From: Gemmatimonadaceae bacterium
Lineage (GTDB): Bacteria > Gemmatimonadota > Gemmatimonadetes > Gemmatimonadales > Gemmatimonadaceae
Direction of reading: 5' to 3'
Assembly (NCBI GenBank): GCA_036003045.1
Contig: DASYSS010000085.1
Coordinates: 1 to 64,000, forward strand
DNA: 64,000 nucleotides
In this document: piece after piece, positions 17,679 through 25,667 of the stretch
Layout: each line of letters begins with the position of its first letter
How positions within the stretch are numbered: the first letter of the stretch is position 1
Made by a program: the position numbers and the translations under genes
The notes under the pieces: generated by a model
Told to the model about the DNA's origin: nothing
The model's database searches: none
What the model saw: the letters and a program-made list of their open reading frames with translations, nothing else

Positions 17679-18056
17679 CTACTTCGGCTTTGCGATGCCA
17701 CCGTGACTGGAGCAGGCGCCCTGACCACCTTTGCTCATGGTGCCGTCGGTGCACTTCACCGTCGCGGTCTTGGCGGCCGGCTTGCCAGCGGTCTTCGGCT
17801 TGCTCGTATCGGCGGCCTTCGCCGGCTTCGTTTCCGCAGTCTTCGGCTTTCCGGCCGGAGTCGCGGCCTTGGTCTCTCCCTTCGAGGCGGCGGCTTTCTT
17901 GACGCCGCCGTGGCTCGAGCACGCACCACGACCCGTAGCGGTCGAAGTGGTTCCGTCGTTGCAGGTCACCGTCGCTTGTTTGGCCTGCGCGCCGGCGACG
18001 GACGCGAGACACGCGAGCGCGGCGACCGAGAGAAATGCCGAAAGGCGCGAACGCAT
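17679..18056 (-). CDS. Secreted protein with two DUF3761 motifs
   Basis: A 125-residue exported protein: signal peptide (RLSAFLSVAALACLASVAGAQ), then two copies of the short DUF3761 unit, TCNDGTTSTATGRGACSSHG near residue 30 and KCTDGTMSKGGQGACSSHGG near 102. They are joined by a Lys/Ala/Pro/Thr-rich linker of about 50 residues. Each unit keeps two cysteines and a histidine, which could form a disulfide or bind metal. The family's function is unknown. The ATG at 18056 starts the signal peptide. A strong terminator follows. Confidence 0.8.
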   Translation of the reverse strand: MRSRLSAFLSVAALACLASVAGAQAKQATVTCNDGTTSTATGRGACSSHGGVKKAAASKGETKAATPAGKPKTAETKPAKAADTSKPKTAGKPAAKTATVKCTDGTMSKGGQGACSSHGGIAKPK

Positions 18057-18130
18057 AGTGCTCTCCGGGTTGAGGGGGATCCGACGATCCGCCTTGTTCG
18101 ACCCGGCGCGCGCCGTGCGCGTCACACCAG

Positions 18131-20869
18131 CTACGTAACGGCTTTGTGTTGCCCGGCCAACGTCTCTTGCGTTGAATCGCCGGTGCGGCCGCGGGGCTCG
18201 TAGGTCCCATCGGCACGAAGATCCCACCCCGTGGGGTCGCCGAGGTAGAGCGCGAGGATGTCGTCGAGGCGGCGACGCTGCTCGGCGTCGTCGATCGGGA
18301 CCAGAACCTCGACGCGTCGCCGAAGATTGCGCGGGCGAAGGTCGGCCGACCCGATGAAGTAGCGCGGCGACCCGCCGTTCGCGAAGCGATAAATGCGCGA
18401 ATGCTCCAGAAAGCGGCCGACGATCGACGTCACGCGCACCCGTTCGCTGCGGCCTTGAATCCCCGGACGGATCGTGCAGATGCCGCGAACGACGAGGTCG
18501 ATTTCGACGCCGTCGTTCGACGCGCGGTAGAGTGCGCGGACGACGTCGGGGTCGGAAAGTCCGTTGAGCTTCGCCGTGATCCGGGCCGGACGACCCGCGC
18601 GCGCGTGTGCCGCTTCGCGGTCGATCTGCTCGACGATCGCCGGCAACAGATGCTGTGGCGCGACGAGCAGCTCCTGCTTCGGTCTGCGAGGCGGCGCGGA
18701 GACGCCCGTCAGCTCGTTGAAGAAATCCGCGACGTCGTCGGCGATCCGCTCGTTCGTCGTAAACAGACTCAGGTCGGTGTACTGCTCACCCGAGCGCGTG
18801 TTGTAGTTCCCGGTTCCGATGTGCACGTACCGTCGGAGCGCGCCGCGCTCGCGCCGCACGACGAGGGCGACCTTCGCGTGGTTCTTGAACCCGACGATGC
18901 CGCGCACGACGTGGCCGCCGGCCGCCTCGAGCGCTCGCGCCCAAGCCACGTTCACCTCCTCGTCGAACCGCGCCTTGACCTCGACGAACACCGTGACGGA
19001 CTTTCCCGCCTTCGCCGCCGACAGCAGCGCGTCGGCGATCGCCGACGGATTGCCGACGCGGTACAGGGTGATCTTGATCGCCGCCACGTCGGGGTCGGCC
19101 GCTGCTTCGCGCACGAATCGCACGACGGTCTCGCCGAACGAATCGAACGGATGGTGCGCGAGCACGTCCCCGGCACCGAGCGTCGCGAACGCGCGCGCGT
19201 CGCCGAAGGGACGGCCGGCCGTGAAGGGCGGGTACGACTTCCTGGCGCGCGGCGAGAGCTCGATTTGCGCGAGTCCGCGCAGATCCAACACCCCGTCGAT
19301 CTCGTCCACGTCCGGAAGCGGCGCGGCGCCCACGGCCGCCTGCTCGCGCCGCACGTTTTCCAACAACAACGCGCGGACGATCGCCGGCATTCCGCGCTCG
19401 ACCTCGACCCGGACGGCGATGCCCTGCCCGCGCGACGTCGTCGCGCGCTCGACCTCCTCGAGCAGGTCGTCCGCGTGTTCTTCGTCGAGCTCGATCTCGG
19501 CGCTCCGCGTCACGCGAAACGCGTACGCGTGTTCGACGGTCGCGTCGGGGTACAACGCATTGAGGTTGCCGCGAATGACCTCCTCGACGGGCACGATCGT
19601 GCGTTCGTCCGGAGTGGCGCCGACCGTGAGAAATCTCGGGAGCGACGTCGGGAGCTCGAGCTCGGCGAACCGCGGAGGTCCGCCCGGGCGCTGGCGGAGA
19701 ATGAGCGCCATCGAAAGCGTCAGATGCCCGAGGCGTGGGAGAGGATGACCCGGGCTCAGGGTCATCGCGAACGGCGTGAGAAGCGGTTGGATGTCGTCGC
19801 GGAAACGATCGGCGAGTACCGCCCGATCGGGCTCCGACAGCGTTTCCCACGTGGCAACGCGCACTCCAGCCGACTCCAGCGCCTGGCGGCACTCATCGAA
19901 GCATTGGGCTTGCCGCGCCGAAATCGACGCGACGGCTTCCGAGACCGCCGCGAGCTCCTCCCCCGGAGACAGGCCGTCGTCCGTGCGCTCCGTGGGTTCC
20001 CCGCGCGTGGCGGCGAGCAAACCTGCCATGCGCACCATGAAGAACTCGTCGACGTTCGCCGCGACGATCGCGAGGAAACGAAGCCGTTCGCGCAACGGCG
20101 TCGCCTCGCTCGCGACGAGCGAGAGCACGCGATGCTGAAACGCCAGGAGACTCAGCTCGGCGTTGAAGAACTCCGGTCCTTCTCCGCCGGACATGGGAAT
20201 CGGCGCGCGAAGATAGCGGTCGGAGTACGCCGTGCCGCGCGGCACGTCCTCGAGGCGTGCCCACTTGATCGCCAGTTCGGCGCGTTCGTGCGTCGGGACC
20301 GCGGAGCGGCGAACGCCGTGCTCTTCTTCCAGCGCGCGCTCGAGCTGGAGCAGGTCTGCCGCGTCGCCCCGCAGCCGGTGAGCGCACATCTGGAAGAATC
20401 GCGCGGACGTGCCGTTGCGGCGGACCGTAACGCGATCCAGGTGAACGCTCAGCCGCGGCCGGCGCAGCCAGTCGAGCGACGCGCGGCGCGTGAGCCGGTC
20501 GACTTCCAGGTCGACACGCACTTGCAACAAGGCCGGGTCGACGATGCCGCGAATCCGTTTGGAAACGGCCGTCTCGGCGGCCATCGCTGCCGTGACGTCG
20601 CCGGCCACGACCCTGGCGTCGACACGGGTTTCGCCCCCGTTGGCCTCGCCGCCGGCGATTCTCAGCGTGAGCGCCGCACCGCCCTTCGCGTCCAACCGCA
20701 GCCGGCAGGTGACGCCACGGCGGCGCAGCGAATCGTCGACGGTGTCCAGGTACAGGTCGCGGTGAAGCGACCGGCGCGCGTCACCGGCCGCGATCCCCGG
20801 CGGCAGAGGCCCGGACGCGAGCGCGCCGAGCTGGTCTGCCGAGAGCAGCTCGCAACGGAATTCGGTCAT
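18131..20869 (-). CDS. ppk1: Polyphosphate kinase 1 fused to an N-terminal CYTH-like domain
   Basis: A 912-residue protein, about 200 longer than ordinary PPK1. Residues about 1-215 look like a CYTH/triphosphate-tunnel domain (RDLYLDTVDDSLRRRGVTCR, LRLDAKGGAALTLRIAGGE, RLSVHLDRVTVRRNG). PPK1 begins near 230 (PEFFNAELSLLAFQHRVLSL), with VDEFFMVRM, the autophosphorylated histidine context GFKNHAKVALVVRR, GTGNYNTRSGEQYTDLSLF, and the second histidine in FLEHSRIYRFANGG. PPK1 makes polyphosphate from ATP, reversibly. CYTH domains bind or hydrolyse triphosphates, and the related VTC domain polymerises polyphosphate. It is the last gene of an operon with an uncharacterised secreted protein and a DUF4956 membrane protein. 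Confidence 0.9.
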   Translation of the reverse strand: MTEFRCELLSADQLGALASGPLPPGIAAGDARRSLHRDLYLDTVDDSLRRRGVTCRLRLDAKGGAALTLRIAGGEANGGETRVDARVVAGDVTAAMAAETAVSKRIRGIVDPALLQVRVDLEVDRLTRRASLDWLRRPRLSVHLDRVTVRRNGTSARFFQMCAHRLRGDAADLLQLERALEEEHGVRRSAVPTHERAELAIKWARLEDVPRGTAYSDRYLRAPIPMSGGEGPEFFNAELSLLAFQHRVLSLVASEATPLRERLRFLAIVAANVDEFFMVRMAGLLAATRGEPTERTDDGLSPGEELAAVSEAVASISARQAQCFDECRQALESAGVRVATWETLSEPDRAVLADRFRDDIQPLLTPFAMTLSPGHPLPRLGHLTLSMALILRQRPGGPPRFAELELPTSLPRFLTVGATPDERTIVPVEEVIRGNLNALYPDATVEHAYAFRVTRSAEIELDEEHADDLLEEVERATTSRGQGIAVRVEVERGMPAIVRALLLENVRREQAAVGAAPLPDVDEIDGVLDLRGLAQIELSPRARKSYPPFTAGRPFGDARAFATLGAGDVLAHHPFDSFGETVVRFVREAAADPDVAAIKITLYRVGNPSAIADALLSAAKAGKSVTVFVEVKARFDEEVNVAWARALEAAGGHVVRGIVGFKNHAKVALVVRRERGALRRYVHIGTGNYNTRSGEQYTDLSLFTTNERIADDVADFFNELTGVSAPPRRPKQELLVAPQHLLPAIVEQIDREAAHARAGRPARITAKLNGLSDPDVVRALYRASNDGVEIDLVVRGICTIRPGIQGRSERVRVTSIVGRFLEHSRIYRFANGGSPRYFIGSADLRPRNLRRRVEVLVPIDDAEQRRRLDDILALYLGDPTGWDLRADGTYEPRGRTGDSTQETLAGQHKAVT

Positions 20870-20927
20870 GCCGTCATCGCCGCGCCGGCTCCCCCCGTGG
20901 GCGCGCCGCTTCGAGTCGGCGAGATGC

Positions 20928-22061
20928 TCAACGTTTTCCGACGCAGGCCTCGATGATGTCCGATTTCGCGTTCTTCGGGTTGTCGATCGTCTTGTAGAAA
21001 TCGTCGAAGTACTTGAGCGACTCGCTCACCATGTCCGCCGGAAGCAGCGAGCCGACCTTGTCGTGGTACAGCGCGTAAATCGCGTCCTTCTTCGCGTCGA
21101 AGACCGCGAACGCTTTCGAATATTCTTCGTTGGGCACGCAGTATCCGCGGTAAAGCCGGTCGCGAACCACTCTGACTTTTAGCCGCGGATCAACGGTGGC
21201 GTACCGAGCGTTCACCAAACCAGCGAAGTCGAAGTCTCTGGCGATCGGGAACGGATCTGTGCCGTCGTTGCGGGCGAACAGCTCCACGTTGTGAAGCCCG
21301 GAAATCGACCAGTCGGTGTTGCCGACGAGATACTGGAACAGGGACATCAGCACCATCTTCCCCGCCTGCGTGTCGCCCGGCCCAGCGCCCTTGATGTCCA
21401 AGATCTTACCGCCGAGGCGCGCCGACAGACGGCCCGGATCTTCTTGAATGAACGCGTATCGCGTCGTCAACGGCTTGCCGCTCGCGCTGTCGACATACGT
21501 CACCTTGAGCGCGCGCACGGCGTGGCTGTCGTGCGTGACCGTCCAATAGATCCGGTAGGCCTGCAGCTCCTGAAGGACGTATCGCTCGTACGTGTCGTCG
21601 TCGCGGCAGAAGTTGGTGAGCTTCGGCTTGTTCAGGCCCGAGAAGATCGTCTTCTTCGTGTTGTCCTTCGAGAAGTCGAGCCGGATCGGCGGGAAGTCGC
21701 AGTGGTTCAGCCGCCAAATACCGTGCGTCTTGAGCTTGAGCGGCAGCACCTCCGGCGCCGACGCGCCGGGCGGCGTGTAGGTGATCGTTGCGTCGCGCCA
21801 CGGCGCGGTGTCGTCCTTGTCGCCCCGGATACGCTTGACGTTCAGCGTGAGCGTGATCGGGAGCGGCTCCTCGCTCTCGAAAAACTTGGCGAGCGGCGCC
21901 GTGTCGTCGGGCGCGCGATCCGGTTTGTCGGCTTTGACCTTTTTCACCGATCCCTGCTGCTTCTGCGCGACGGCGGGTTGCACCGCGCAAACCGCGGCGC
22001 CCAAGCCCAACAACGTGGACACCATCCACAGCCGCCATTGACTGAGTCGATGCTCGATCAC
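20928..22061 (-). CDS. Secreted protein of an uncharacterised family, middle gene of the polyphosphate operon
   Basis: A 377-residue exported protein; the GTG at 22061 is preceded by GAGGGAG. A signal peptide (MVSTLLGLGAAVCAVQPAVA) is followed by a basic linker, then the family's conserved pieces: LKLKTHGIWRLNHCDFPPIR near residue 115, TYERYVLQELQAYRIYW near 170, and IARDFDFAGLVNARYATVDP near 280 with RDRLYRGYC nearby. I know this pattern from many secreted bacterial proteins without function; a remote link to CotH-like kinases is possible but not visible as catalytic motifs. It lies 40 bp after the DUF4956 gene and 58 bp before PPK1, so the three are probably cotranscribed. Confidence 0.7.
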   Translation of the reverse strand: MIEHRLSQWRLWMVSTLLGLGAAVCAVQPAVAQKQQGSVKKVKADKPDRAPDDTAPLAKFFESEEPLPITLTLNVKRIRGDKDDTAPWRDATITYTPPGASAPEVLPLKLKTHGIWRLNHCDFPPIRLDFSKDNTKKTIFSGLNKPKLTNFCRDDDTYERYVLQELQAYRIYWTVTHDSHAVRALKVTYVDSASGKPLTTRYAFIQEDPGRLSARLGGKILDIKGAGPGDTQAGKMVLMSLFQYLVGNTDWSISGLHNVELFARNDGTDPFPIARDFDFAGLVNARYATVDPRLKVRVVRDRLYRGYCVPNEEYSKAFAVFDAKKDAIYALYHDKVGSLLPADMVSESLKYFDDFYKTIDNPKNAKSDIIEACVGKR

Positions 22062-22101
22062 GATTTCTCCCTCGCGGATGAGGTAGCGAGACAACGGATG
22101 C

Positions 22102-23136
22102 CTACAGCAGCTCGGCTTCGACCATGTGCTTGCCGCCGGCAAGCCGCAACAATGCGAGCAGCTCTTCCGGGCCGCTCTTCTTCTTAGGAAGTACCACGTA
22201 ATCGAGCACCGTTACCCCGTCACCCGATTCGGAGACGGCGGCCAAATCCCACTTCTTCGCCGCTTCGTCGAGCCGCGCCTCCATGACAGGCTGCACAATC
22301 ATCGCGTCGGTGATCCTCACCCGGAGGCGGCACTCCACCTTGTCGCCGCCCCGCTCCTCGCCCTCGGGACTGTGCTCCCGGGCCCGGCGCCATGCGCGCT
22401 GCGCGATGCCCTCGAGCTGCTCCGACGTCATTTCGCTGAGCACCTCGTCTTCGATGCGCGCCACGAAGGTGCCCGTCCGCGCTAGCTCCCTGGCGCGTTG
22501 AAGACGTCGCTCGGCGAGCTTGCCGTCGAGGGCCACCGGCGTGCGGCCGAAATCCGCCGTCCAGAGTAGGAAGATGACGGCGTTGAAGACGATCGAGATC
22601 ACGGCGGCCACCGGCAGATCCACGGCGGCCGCGATGCCGATGCCCATCATGAGAAAGATGTACGCGGCGTCCTTGCTGTCATCGAGCGTGTTTCGGAAGC
22701 GGACCGCCGCCGCGATGCCGCCCAAGCTGAATGCCAGCGCCAGGCTGTACTTCACCAGCACGACGATACCGGAAACGACCACAGGGAGCACGATCATCAG
22801 CTGCACGACCGACTGCTGATATCCGCGCCGGGAACGCGTCAGCGTGTAGACCCACGCGACCGGCAGGGAGAGCAGGGCCGCGGCAATCATGGCCATCGCG
22901 ACCGTCGCCGCGAGCGTGCCCTGTCCGACCTCCGGCACGACGGCGTTCTTGCCCGTCCGCACGACGTCACCCGTTCCATAGAGAGCGGCGATGGAGGAGT
23001 CGCTGATGATGTGCGTGCGCGGCAGATACTGCCACACCAATGCGCCGACGATCGTCAGCGCGATGTAGTACAGGACGACCTGAACTATGACTCTATTCGC
23101 CGACGCTGCGGCGGGCGCGATCGACCGAGTGGCCAT
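22102..23136 (-). CDS. DUF4956 membrane protein
   Basis: A 344-residue inner-membrane protein with four to five hydrophobic segments in residues 18-200, then a soluble C-terminal domain of about 140 residues. The DUF4956 signature is VRFRNTLDDSKDAAYIFLMM near 145, with MGIGIAAAVDLPVAAV after it and NAVIFLLWTADFG at the end of the membrane part. The family has no proven activity, but in many bacteria it neighbours VTC-type polyphosphate polymerase and CotH genes. Here it opens an operon ending in CYTH-fused PPK1, which fits a role linked to polyphosphate. Confidence 0.85.
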   Translation of the reverse strand: MATRSIAPAAASANRVIVQVVLYYIALTIVGALVWQYLPRTHIISDSSIAALYGTGDVVRTGKNAVVPEVGQGTLAATVAMAMIAAALLSLPVAWVYTLTRSRRGYQQSVVQLMIVLPVVVSGIVVLVKYSLALAFSLGGIAAAVRFRNTLDDSKDAAYIFLMMGIGIAAAVDLPVAAVISIVFNAVIFLLWTADFGRTPVALDGKLAERRLQRARELARTGTFVARIEDEVLSEMTSEQLEGIAQRAWRRAREHSPEGEERGGDKVECRLRVRITDAMIVQPVMEARLDEAAKKWDLAAVSESGDGVTVLDYVVLPKKKSGPEELLALLRLAGGKHMVEAELL

Positions 23137-23214: not shown

Positions 23215-23778
23215 CTATCCTGACGGCGGCCGGCCCTTCCCCTGCCCCCGATTCTGCCCCGCCGCGTCCTGGATTTGCTGCTCGGCCTTTGCCTCGAACC
23301 CGTGCGCCGAGTCGAGCTGGCGCGACGACAGGAGCGCATACGCCCGGTCGCGCCCTGACTCATTGTTTTCCCGGACCGCGGCGATCGTCTCGCGGACGAG
23401 GGAATTCGCCTCCGCCACGGAATCGCGCCGCTCGGGGCTCCCGCTGCTGAACAGGGGACCCTTCTTGAACAGCCGCTGAACCGAGTCGAGCTTGCGCATG
23501 AGAGGCGCGTTCGTCGAATCGAGGGTGCGCTTGATCGCGATCACGTTCATGAACTGCGAGTCGCTCAGCGCGAGATCCTGTCGATGCTGGACGAGTAGAT
23601 TGACCGCGTTCACGACCTGGGGCACATCCACGCCGGGGGCGCGCGGAAGCGACGCGCCTCGGCCGAACCCGCTGCTGCGCCCGCCGCCTCGCCCGCCCTG
23701 CGCGGAGGCTGCCGCGGGCACGAGAACGCCGAAGAGCGCGACTGACGCGAGCAGGCCGAACGCTCTCTGACTCACCAT
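23215..23778 (-). CDS. Exported helical protein, Spy-like
   Basis: A 187-residue protein with a signal peptide (AFGLLASVALFGVLVPAAASAQ), a Gly/Arg-rich linker (GGRGGGRSSGFGRGAS) and then only helices. LALSDSQFMNVIAIKRTLDS near residue 70 resembles the first LTXXQ motif of Spy/CpxP. A second helical hairpin (RDRAYALLSSRQLDSAHGF) lies near 150. It is probably a periplasmic chaperone or stress protein like the one at 11213-11719. The gene is 78 bp upstream of the DUF4956 operon on the same strand and could read into it. Confidence 0.65.
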   Translation of the reverse strand: MVSQRAFGLLASVALFGVLVPAAASAQGGRGGGRSSGFGRGASLPRAPGVDVPQVVNAVNLLVQHRQDLALSDSQFMNVIAIKRTLDSTNAPLMRKLDSVQRLFKKGPLFSSGSPERRDSVAEANSLVRETIAAVRENNESGRDRAYALLSSRQLDSAHGFEAKAEQQIQDAAGQNRGQGKGRPPSG

Positions 23779-24332: not shown

Positions 24333-25667
24333 TCAGATAAAGAGATCTTCGCGCGTCGGCGGAAGGTTCGTGTGTCCTTCGCGGGGCTTGGACAGCAGCG
24401 TCTGAAGGACGTTCAGGTCTCCCGTCCCGAACCCCCGAGCCGACGCGGTCATATAGAGGCGCCACACGCGGAACGCCGTTTCGCCCACGATCGCGACAGC
24501 CCGGTCGCGGTTCCGCTCGAGACGACTGATCCATTCCTCCAGGGTCCGCGCGTAGTGCTCGCGGAGGCTTTCCACGTCGCGCGTCTCGAACCCCACGGCT
24601 TCCGCCGCATGAATGATCTCGTAGAACGGGCCAAGCTTGCCGTCGGGAAAGACGTATTGGTCGATGAACGCGTCCGCCTTCCATAGGCGCCGCGCCAACG
24701 ATTCGCGCCATCCCCGCGGCCGACCGGCCTGCACGCTGACGATCCCGTGATTCAAAAAGAGCCCGCCCGGCGCGAGCGCGGCGTACGCGGACGCGAAGTA
24801 CTGCGGCAAGTGGTCGACCCCGACGTGTTCGACCATGCCCACGCTCGCCAACTTGTCGAACGGCCCGAGCGTGGCGACGTCACGGTAGTCGCGCAGCTCG
24901 ATGCGGCAGCACTTCGAGAGTCCCGCGTCGGCGATCCGTTTCGTCGCCAGCTCCGCCTGCCGCTTGCTCAACGTGACGCCGACGGCGTTCACGCCATAGT
25001 GCGTGGCAGCGTGAATGACGAGCGCCCCCCATCCGCATCCAATGTCGAGGAATCGATCGTCCGGCTCGAGGCGCAGCTTGCGGCACACGAGATCGAGCTT
25101 CGCCTCCTGCGCGCGGTCGAGCGTGTCGTCGGCGCGGTGGAAGTACGCGCACGAATACACCATCCGCTTGTCGAGCCAGAGCTGGTAAAAGTCGTTGCCG
25201 ACGTCGTAGTGGTAGCTGATCGCGGCGCGATCTCGCCTGCGCTCATGTTTTTCGCCGGACTGGGTGCCGAGCGCGTCGGCGCTGTGTTCGCGAACAGCCT
25301 CGGCGTCGCCATTCGGACTGGGGAGCGACAGGAGATCCTTCGTCAGTGAGATCAGCGCGCGTACCGACGATAGCCGCGACTTGATCGCATCGCCGAGCGC
25401 GACGGCCGCGGAGAGCTCTCCCTCGACGTCGACGACGCCCGATAAGTACGCTTCGACGATCGCGAGCTCGCTCGGCGGAAGCAGCATTTGTCGCAGCGCC
25501 GAGGGCGTCTTGAGGACGAGCGTGAACGGAGCGTCCCCGTCACCGGCCGTCTCGACGGTGCCGTCCCAATAGCGCACGTCGAAGCCGCGCTCCGTCGGCG
25601 TTCCGAACAGCGTGTCGACCGCGTGCTGACTGCGATGAAGTGCAGAGACTATGTCGTGCCGTTCCAC
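24333..25667 (-). CDS. cfa: Cyclopropane-fatty-acyl-phospholipid synthase
   Basis: A 444-residue SAM-dependent methyltransferase that adds a methylene bridge to unsaturated acyl chains in membrane phospholipids. Residues about 30-130 are the N-terminal lipid-binding domain. YHYDVGNDFYQLWLD near 150 and YSCAYF are diagnostic of the family. The SAM site is RFLDIGCGWGALVIHAA near 205, and GMVEHVG near 277 is the conserved active-site loop. The start is ATG at 25667. It is single, with no neighbours of lipid metabolism. Confidence 0.9.
   Translation of the reverse strand: MERHDIVSALHRSQHAVDTLFGTPTERGFDVRYWDGTVETAGDGDAPFTLVLKTPSALRQMLLPPSELAIVEAYLSGVVDVEGELSAAVALGDAIKSRLSSVRALISLTKDLLSLPSPNGDAEAVREHSADALGTQSGEKHERRRDRAAISYHYDVGNDFYQLWLDKRMVYSCAYFHRADDTLDRAQEAKLDLVCRKLRLEPDDRFLDIGCGWGALVIHAATHYGVNAVGVTLSKRQAELATKRIADAGLSKCCRIELRDYRDVATLGPFDKLASVGMVEHVGVDHLPQYFASAYAALAPGGLFLNHGIVSVQAGRPRGWRESLARRLWKADAFIDQYVFPDGKLGPFYEIIHAAEAVGFETRDVESLREHYARTLEEWISRLERNRDRAVAIVGETAFRVWRLYMTASARGFGTGDLNVLQTLLSKPREGHTNLPPTREDLFI

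Follow-up and report, generated by a model that had tools for sequence, protein, structure and literature searches.

Gene sets that bring together a VTC-type polyphosphate polymerase, a DUF4956 protein and a CotH protein have been reported beside the pel (Pel exopolysaccharide) loci of Gram-positive bacteria (PMC7112168), and a CotH/VTC/DUF4956 set lies beside a glycosyltransferase in NELoc-2 of C. perfringens (PMC2879425). In eukaryotes, VTC couples the synthesis of polyphosphate to its translocation, which runs through a channel whose lining carries basic residues (PMC9911596). The CotH enzymes studied so far take ATP in vitro, and the source of the ATP used by CotH kinases has been posed as an unanswered question (PMC7821199). 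The VTC–DUF4956–CotH set is already known and functionally unsolved; the version described here, in which PPK1 is the polymerase, is new.

The window, by which we mean the whole 64,000-nucleotide stretch that was analysed, comes from a soil-type bacterium of the Gemmatimonadota. Its operon consists of three genes on the minus strand, encoding a DUF4956 membrane protein of 344 aa (22102..23136), a secreted protein of 377 aa with a predicted CotH-like kinase fold, here called SEC (20928..22061), and a CYTH-PPK1 fusion of 912 aa (18131..20869). The gaps are exactly 40 bp between DUF4956 and SEC and 58 bp between SEC and CYTH-PPK1, and the shared strand, the coordinates and the spacing all agree with the first-pass annotation. 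As in the known sets, a DUF4956 gene lies here next to genes for a polyphosphate polymerase and a secreted protein of CotH type, and the SEC family itself occurs in VTC–DUF4956–SEC-family triads at three Bacteroidota loci (L189, L198 and L199; VTC and DUF4956 assigned by Pfam). On the other hand, the window set is without VTC: PF09359 had no match in the window protein or in the whole genome (G000), VTC was found in 2 of 121 Gemmatimonadota genomes, and CYTH-PPK1 stands in VTC's place beside DUF4956 and the CotH-like gene. The two polymerases are of different kinds, PPK1 being PLD-like with a histidine mechanism and VTC a tunnel-domain enzyme, and here a CYTH domain is fused to PPK1. Furthermore, SEC belongs to a distant branch of CotH, with four invariant cysteines, and no Pel genes accompany the window set.

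The PPK1 core (18173..20170, minus strand; residues 234-899 of CYTH-PPK1) matches TIGR03705 with 690.7 bits against a cut-off of 465.85 and contains four PP_kinase Pfam domains, and its catalytic histidines, H664 and H823, align with H435 and H592 of E. coli PPK1 (phmmer, 4e-97). It belongs to a lineage separate from that of the housekeeping PPK1 (G000:C47). Both enzymes have a complete core and both catalytic histidines, whereas the operon PPK1s form their own clade, carry CYTH, CYTH–Nudix-like or DUF4956 modules at the N-terminus and cluster with DUF4956 and SEC genes. Within the Gemmatimonadota, the operon PPK1s occur as CYTH-PPK1, CYTH–Nudix-like–PPK1, plain PPK1 and a DUF4956-PPK1 fusion: CYTH is absent from those of L064, L072 and L131, and DUF4956 sits in its place on PPK1 in L103, L104, L143 and L147. 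The DUF4956-PPK1 single chains come from four genomes and form one clade (support 100/100); two of the four lie directly after SEC and two adjoin a CHAD gene. In the Gemmatimonadota set, a second PPK1 lineage occupies VTC's place.

Could the CYTH domain, as the first-pass annotation proposed, be what substitutes for VTC? That annotation had seen about 215 extra, CYTH-like residues at the N-terminus of PPK1; PP_kinase_N begins at residue 234, which brings the extension to about 230 residues, and its first 205 (20255..20869, minus strand) form the CYTH/TTM domain. The tunnel fold is indeed predicted, and it matches Vtc4 as well: the AlphaFold2 model (pLDDT 90.6) finds ygiF (6.8e-11) and Vtc4 (1.5e-5) by Foldseek, with VIA Z scores of 16.2 to TTM enzymes and 12.3 to yeast Vtc4, the likeness to the VTC polymerase being one of fold only. 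The Pfam CYTH score of the window protein is sub-threshold (20.8 bits, cut-off 23.2), and the same profile picks out 15 of 18 relatives, at best with 7e-9. Where an EXEXK motif would stand, the domain reads M-x-E-x-R, and position R5 carries a basic residue in 87% of the 39 domains compared; in place of ELELE, the window protein has QMCAH, and the family as a whole has E-x-C/S/T-x-R/H. Residue counts over the 39 domains show that the basic residues of the tunnel are retained and that the metal-binding acids are mostly gone; the acidic EXEXK and ELELE metal ligands that mark an active TTM enzyme are for the most part missing from the window domain. CYTH-CHAD proteins such as YgiF, the closest solved fold by Foldseek, share the N-terminal CYTH/TTM fold and the polyphosphate context, but CYTH-PPK1 has PPK1 where they have CHAD and has lost most of these acids. 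The tunnel domain is basic and apparently non-catalytic. We rejected it as the polymerase because most of its metal ligands are lost and because it is dispensable in the operon PPK1s, where it is missing or swapped in some members. Consequently, it is the PPK1 enzyme, and not CYTH, that replaced the VTC polymerase.

SEC begins with a GTG codon preceded by a GGGAG-type RBS, and its signal peptide, MIEHRLSQWRLWMVSTLLGLGAAVCAVQPAVAQ (21963..22061, minus strand), has by hydropathy a core at residues 11-32 and an AxA-type end (AVAQ). The first-pass annotation had called it an uncharacterised secreted protein; secreted holds, whereas a CotH-like kinase fold now makes it the third member of the VTC–DUF4956–CotH type of set. 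Neither the Pfam CotH search of the window protein nor a search of the PDB by sequence alone with the SEC profile gave a match, although Pfam CotH matches 6 of 38 SEC relatives (best 1.5e-6); the likeness came from the fold search. The AlphaFold2 model (pLDDT 90.5) has CotH 5jd9 as its top Foldseek match (2.7e-8), with a VIA Z score of 20.6 and an rmsd of 3.1 over 269 residues, compared with Z 13.1 for the next fold. By hhalign, the catalytic-loop motif GNTDWSISGLHN (21288..21323, minus strand), in which D250, H257 and N258 are invariant in 38 homologues, pairs with the canonical CotH KNVD..GN loop, and the metal-site motif DFD (21228..21236, minus strand), with D276 and D278 invariant in the same 38, pairs with the CotH WDFD, an alignment that at P 0.03 is supportive only. 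On this model, SEC is predicted to have the CotH-kinase fold with the catalytic and metal-site aspartates retained. It resembles the CotH kinases (B. cereus 5jd9/5jda; B. subtilis CotH) in overall fold and in that the catalytic D...N and the DFD motif follow each other in the same order, and differs from them in its ~10% identity, its signal peptide, its invariant cysteines and its place in an operon of polyphosphate genes; its kinase activity is putative.

The DUF4956 protein matches PF16316 with 39.5 bits (cut-off 30.6). A separate, iterated DUF4956 profile was built from single-domain proteins, since PPK1 from the fusions otherwise contaminates it. Hydropathy places the hydrophobic stretches inside residues 12-197, followed by a polar C-terminal region, and a basic motif, AVRFRxxLxDxKD (residues 144-156), is conserved (68 homologues). 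To our knowledge, no function has been assigned to DUF4956. A single chain at L107 that joins DUF4956 to Omp85 was set aside as evidence: there is no signal peptide at the junction, the barrel would face the cytoplasm, and the chain is likely the product of a lost stop or a frameshift in a metagenome contig.

Across the phylum, both the DUF4956-SEC pair and the SEC-PPK1 pair recur. A DUF4956 and/or SEC gene lies within ~5.5 kb of 39 of the 52 CYTH-PPK1 genes, and DUF4956 is that near in 32 of them, where ~0.2 would be expected by chance; this count includes DUF4956 rows added from the loci of G071, G277 (C117) and G168 (C749), with approximate positions for G071 and G168. The polyphosphate-linked set is conserved in relatives, and neither outcome that the first-pass annotation had named as refuting its idea, a missing tunnel fold or a trio not conserved in relatives, came about. 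Even so, members of the genus differ in how much of the trio they carry: in G144 and G255 the DUF4956-SEC pair stands with no PPK1 next to it, and in G177 both are missing. Among 110 SEC homologue loci, 29 have DUF4956 as the only partner and 51 have neither of the two partner genes as a same-strand neighbour; in 18 of these 51 the contig end is too close for a judgement. G043 and G169 carry DUF4956 and SEC, and a PPK1 search of them at 1e-20 gave none. A secreted phosphodiesterase gene is divergent from 19 of 41 DUF4956-SEC pairs. In other members of the phylum, an Omp85-barrel protein (~850 aa) stands instead of SEC beside DUF4956 and CYTH-PPK1; the N-terminal domain of these proteins has no Pfam or PDB match, and they are kinase-like by motif order only (hhalign P 0.07-0.28), which is a lead.

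What might such a set do? The reading that we favour, to which we give an even chance, takes the set for a polyphosphate module coupled to the membrane, with a PPK1-type polymerase standing where the VTC-type one stood; its transport and donor steps are ones that we infer. CYTH-PPK1 would convert ATP into polyphosphate in the cytoplasm, and the basic tunnel domain may hold or guide the chain. By analogy with the yeast VTC complex, DUF4956 would dock the polymerase at the membrane and pass the chain outward, where the secreted CotH-like enzyme could use it as a phosphoryl donor or fix it to envelope substrates. The folds, the catalytic residues, the linkage, the DUF4956-PPK1 fusions, the Bacteroidota triads set against the rarity of VTC in the Gemmatimonadota and the divergent phosphodiesterase gene speak for this reading; the SEC homologues that stand without one or both partners, the outcome of the PPK1 search in G043 and G169, the missing Pfam CotH match of the window SEC and the in vitro use of ATP by CotH enzymes speak against it. 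The eukaryotic complex (Vtc1/3/4) resembles the window set in combining a polyphosphate polymerase with a tunnel domain and a small membrane component, and it serves as a working model for synthesis that is coupled to translocation. In VTC, however, the tunnel is itself the polymerase, a role that belongs here to PPK1; the window set has no SPX domain, and the likeness of DUF4956 to Vtc1 is not one of demonstrated sequence kinship. The exchange of the polymerase while the membrane and kinase-like partners are kept, together with the fusion of DUF4956 to PPK1, argues that polyphosphate is the common element. ATP is normally absent outside the cytoplasm. A bolder proposal, which we regard as tentative and less likely than not, is that polyphosphate made by VTC or PPK1 and exported through DUF4956 replaces ATP as the fuel of an extracytoplasmic CotH-type (or kinase-like Omp85) enzyme.

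Alternatively, exported polyphosphate may be a product and not a fuel, namely a structural or metal-binding polymer of the cell surface, with the CotH-like protein attaching it or phosphorylating envelope proteins from another donor. The Pel genes and the glycosyltransferase beside the known sets fit such an anchored anionic polymer, as does the Omp85-barrel protein that replaces SEC, but no polysaccharide genes were seen adjoining the window operon, and we consider this explanation doubtful. It is less probable still that CYTH-PPK1 makes cytoplasmic granules for storage or regulation, with DUF4956 as a membrane tether and SEC as an unrelated protein of the envelope whose gene is merely under the same phosphate or stress control. 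The CHAD genes (granule-binding proteins) next to the DUF4956-PPK1 fusions, the regulatory look of the CYTH and Nudix-like modules and the presence of a second, housekeeping PPK1 are consistent with storage; against it, SEC-family genes accompany DUF4956 under either polymerase, and the SEC-PPK1 coupling (gaps of -19 to 79 bp at 22 loci) is tighter than co-regulation needs. A stray PPK1 copy that landed by chance or local arrangement beside an unrelated DUF4956-SEC pair, as the PPK1-free pairs of G144 and G255 might suggest, is in essence refuted by the recurrence in several deep lineages, the gene fusions and the linkage counts.

Sets of VTC, DUF4956 and CotH turn up again and again in bacteria that are far apart, and the exchange of polymerases makes the source of phosphoryl groups outside the cytoplasm a matter for simple tests. 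If exported polyphosphate does fuel an extracytoplasmic kinase, the exchange of VTC for PPK1 would mean that the element conserved by the gene set is its product, polyphosphate.

The three genes lie on the minus strand of the window in the order DUF4956 (22102-23136), SEC, a secreted CotH-like protein (20928-22061), and PPK1 (18131-20869), separated by 40 and 58 bp, in agreement with the three same-strand genes of the first-pass annotation. The DUF4956 and PPK1 identities are above threshold in Pfam and NCBIfam. The operon is flanked, on the same strand, by a small DUF3761 protein downstream (17679-18062) and, upstream, by a small protein without a Pfam match (23215-23778) and a cyclopropane-fatty-acid-synthase family protein (24333-25667); no polysaccharide genes were seen adjoining it. 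A housekeeping-type second PPK1 is encoded in the same genome (G000:C47), whose lineage is of Gemmatimonadota type, as near relatives are.

Could the N-terminal CYTH domain of PPK1 stand in for VTC, as first proposed? The predicted tunnel fold was borne out: the region preceding the PPK1 core, which starts at residue 234 (Pfam/NCBIfam), was modelled from an 18-sequence alignment with a pLDDT of 90.6 and a pTM of 0.84, Foldseek ranked YgiF first (6.8e-11) and also matched yeast Vtc4 (1.5e-5), and VIA-align gave Z-scores of 16 to triphosphate-tunnel enzymes and 12.3 to Vtc4. Across 39 CYTH domains, however, conservation of the EXEXK strand is good at its basic residue alone, and the pattern of the ELELE strand is E-x-C/S/T-x-R/H, with QMCAH in the window. 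We infer that the CYTH domain binds or guides polyphosphate in its tunnel and acts neither as a triphosphatase nor as a polymerase. Both histidines that are catalytic in the E. coli enzyme are retained in the PPK1 core, so the PPK1 part is the predicted polymerase of the operon and it, not the CYTH domain, would take the place of VTC.

The window SEC itself has no Pfam match, and Pfam CotH was matched by 6 of 38 SEC homologues (best 1.5e-6). Its model (pLDDT 90.5) matched the B. cereus CotH kinase in Foldseek (2.7e-8) and aligned to CotH with a Z-score of 20.6 over 269 residues (next fold, 13.1). In the motifs GNTDWSxxxxHN and DFD, the D, HN and DFD positions are invariant and line up with the motifs that form the catalytic and metal sites in canonical CotH proteins. 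The model, fold matches and aligned motifs thus identify SEC as a CotH-like protein with a signal peptide, a predicted kinase fold and putative kinase activity.

In the phylum survey (codon-score-based gene calls, largely metagenome assemblies), SEC occurred in 119 of 298 genomes, DUF4956 in 152 and CYTH-type PPK1 in 61; VTC was found in 2 of 121. Among 52 CYTH-PPK1 genes with E < 1e-10, 39 had DUF4956 and/or SEC within ~5.5 kb (36 all same-strand), and 32 had DUF4956 nearby versus ~0.2 expected by chance. The SEC-to-PPK1 gap ranged from -19 to 79 bp (22 loci). The linkage is recurrent, but the composition of the trio varies even within the genus: a neighbouring PPK1 is absent in same-genus genomes G144 and G255, and the DUF4956-SEC pair in G177. 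The arrangements include DUF4956–SEC–CYTH-PPK1 (window, L068, L070, L071, L129), SEC–DUF4956–CYTH–Nudix-like–PPK1 (L084, L087, L088, L090), SEC–CYTH–Nudix-like–PPK1 (L081-L083, L085), DUF4956–SEC–plain PPK1 (L064, L072, L131) and, in L143 and L147, SEC ahead of DUF4956 and PPK1 joined in one chain. About half of the sampled SEC loci had neither partner next door on the same strand, and PPK1 was not detected in two genomes with DUF4956 and SEC (G043, G169).

Most relatives that do not belong to the window's clade have a degenerate Nudix-like domain of ~150 aa that separates CYTH from PPK1 (L077, L081-L091, L110, L113-L120; alignment A4); its PDB matches were weak, to ADP-ribose pyrophosphatase alone (E 0.4).

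A CotH–polyphosphate polymerase–DUF4956 set adjoins Pel genes (Whitfield et al., PMC7112168), and in C. perfringens NELoc-2 CotH is grouped with VTC and a membrane protein of ~225 aa (PMC2879425). VTC–DUF4956–SEC triads with SEC homologues were found in three Bacteroidota loci (L189, L198, L199), where Pfam confirmed both VTC and DUF4956. Housekeeping enzymes grouped in a single clade (100/99) of the PPK1 tree, and all types of operon copy (CYTH, CYTH–Nudix-like, plain and DUF4956-fused) lay apart from it. Given these triads and the separate operon lineage, a second PPK1 occupies the position of the polymerase, and its membrane and CotH-like neighbours are the same. The ancestor may have had VTC, but on the SEC tree, whose root is not known, PPK1 association changed at least nine times. 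One Gemmatimonadota genome has VTC next to DUF4956, and a long frame in the vicinity matches CotH weakly (L108, G090:C2:460000-473000); the ordinary VTC-DUF4956-CotH triad may also occur in this phylum.

Four fusion polypeptides of 911-938 aa (L103:4960-7725 and L104:3929-6721, minus strand, each adjoined by a CHAD gene; L143:4777-7511 and L147:7960-10773, plus strand) form one clade (100/100) within the operon PPK1 lineage and tie DUF4956 strongly to polyphosphate synthesis. An earlier description of CYTH-PPK1 or DUF4956–PPK1 fusions was not found in the open-licence papers searched.

Other genes also recur in the vicinity of DUF4956. Proteins of ~850-920 aa, several with an Omp85 barrel match, lie beside or near it (L105 and L106, on contigs C5 and C7 of the window's own genome, L107, L110, L113, L115-L117); their invariant order D-x-DR...Q..W...DRD..F is reminiscent of kinase catalytic loops, and they may stand in for the CotH-like partner at the outer membrane. 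An apparently secreted type I phosphodiesterase/nucleotide pyrophosphatase is encoded divergently from 19 of 41 DUF4956-SEC pairs (L068-L074, L076, L095, L099, L124, L125, L129, L131, L133-L135, L145, L186), the window's pair having no such gene adjoining it. A beta-propeller-like protein (SdiA-regulated; some weakly phytase-like) recurs as a neighbour of DUF4956 in L097, L098, L106 and L110; in L097, L098 and L110 CYTH-PPK1 is close by.

Synthesis and translocation are coupled in the yeast VTC complex, whose channel has a lining of basic residues (PMC9911596). DUF4956 carries the conserved motif AVRFRxxLxDxKD at its membrane segments, and fusion would place PPK1 beside it on the cytoplasmic side. 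A secreted protein with a kinase fold has no ATP at hand. The ATP source of CotH has been called an unanswered question (PMC7821199). What is directly established here is the components, their folds and their linkage alone. In the reading that we favour, polyphosphate would be synthesised by PPK1 docked at the cytoplasmic side of DUF4956 and moved out of the cytoplasm, where it would serve SEC as a donor or substrate.
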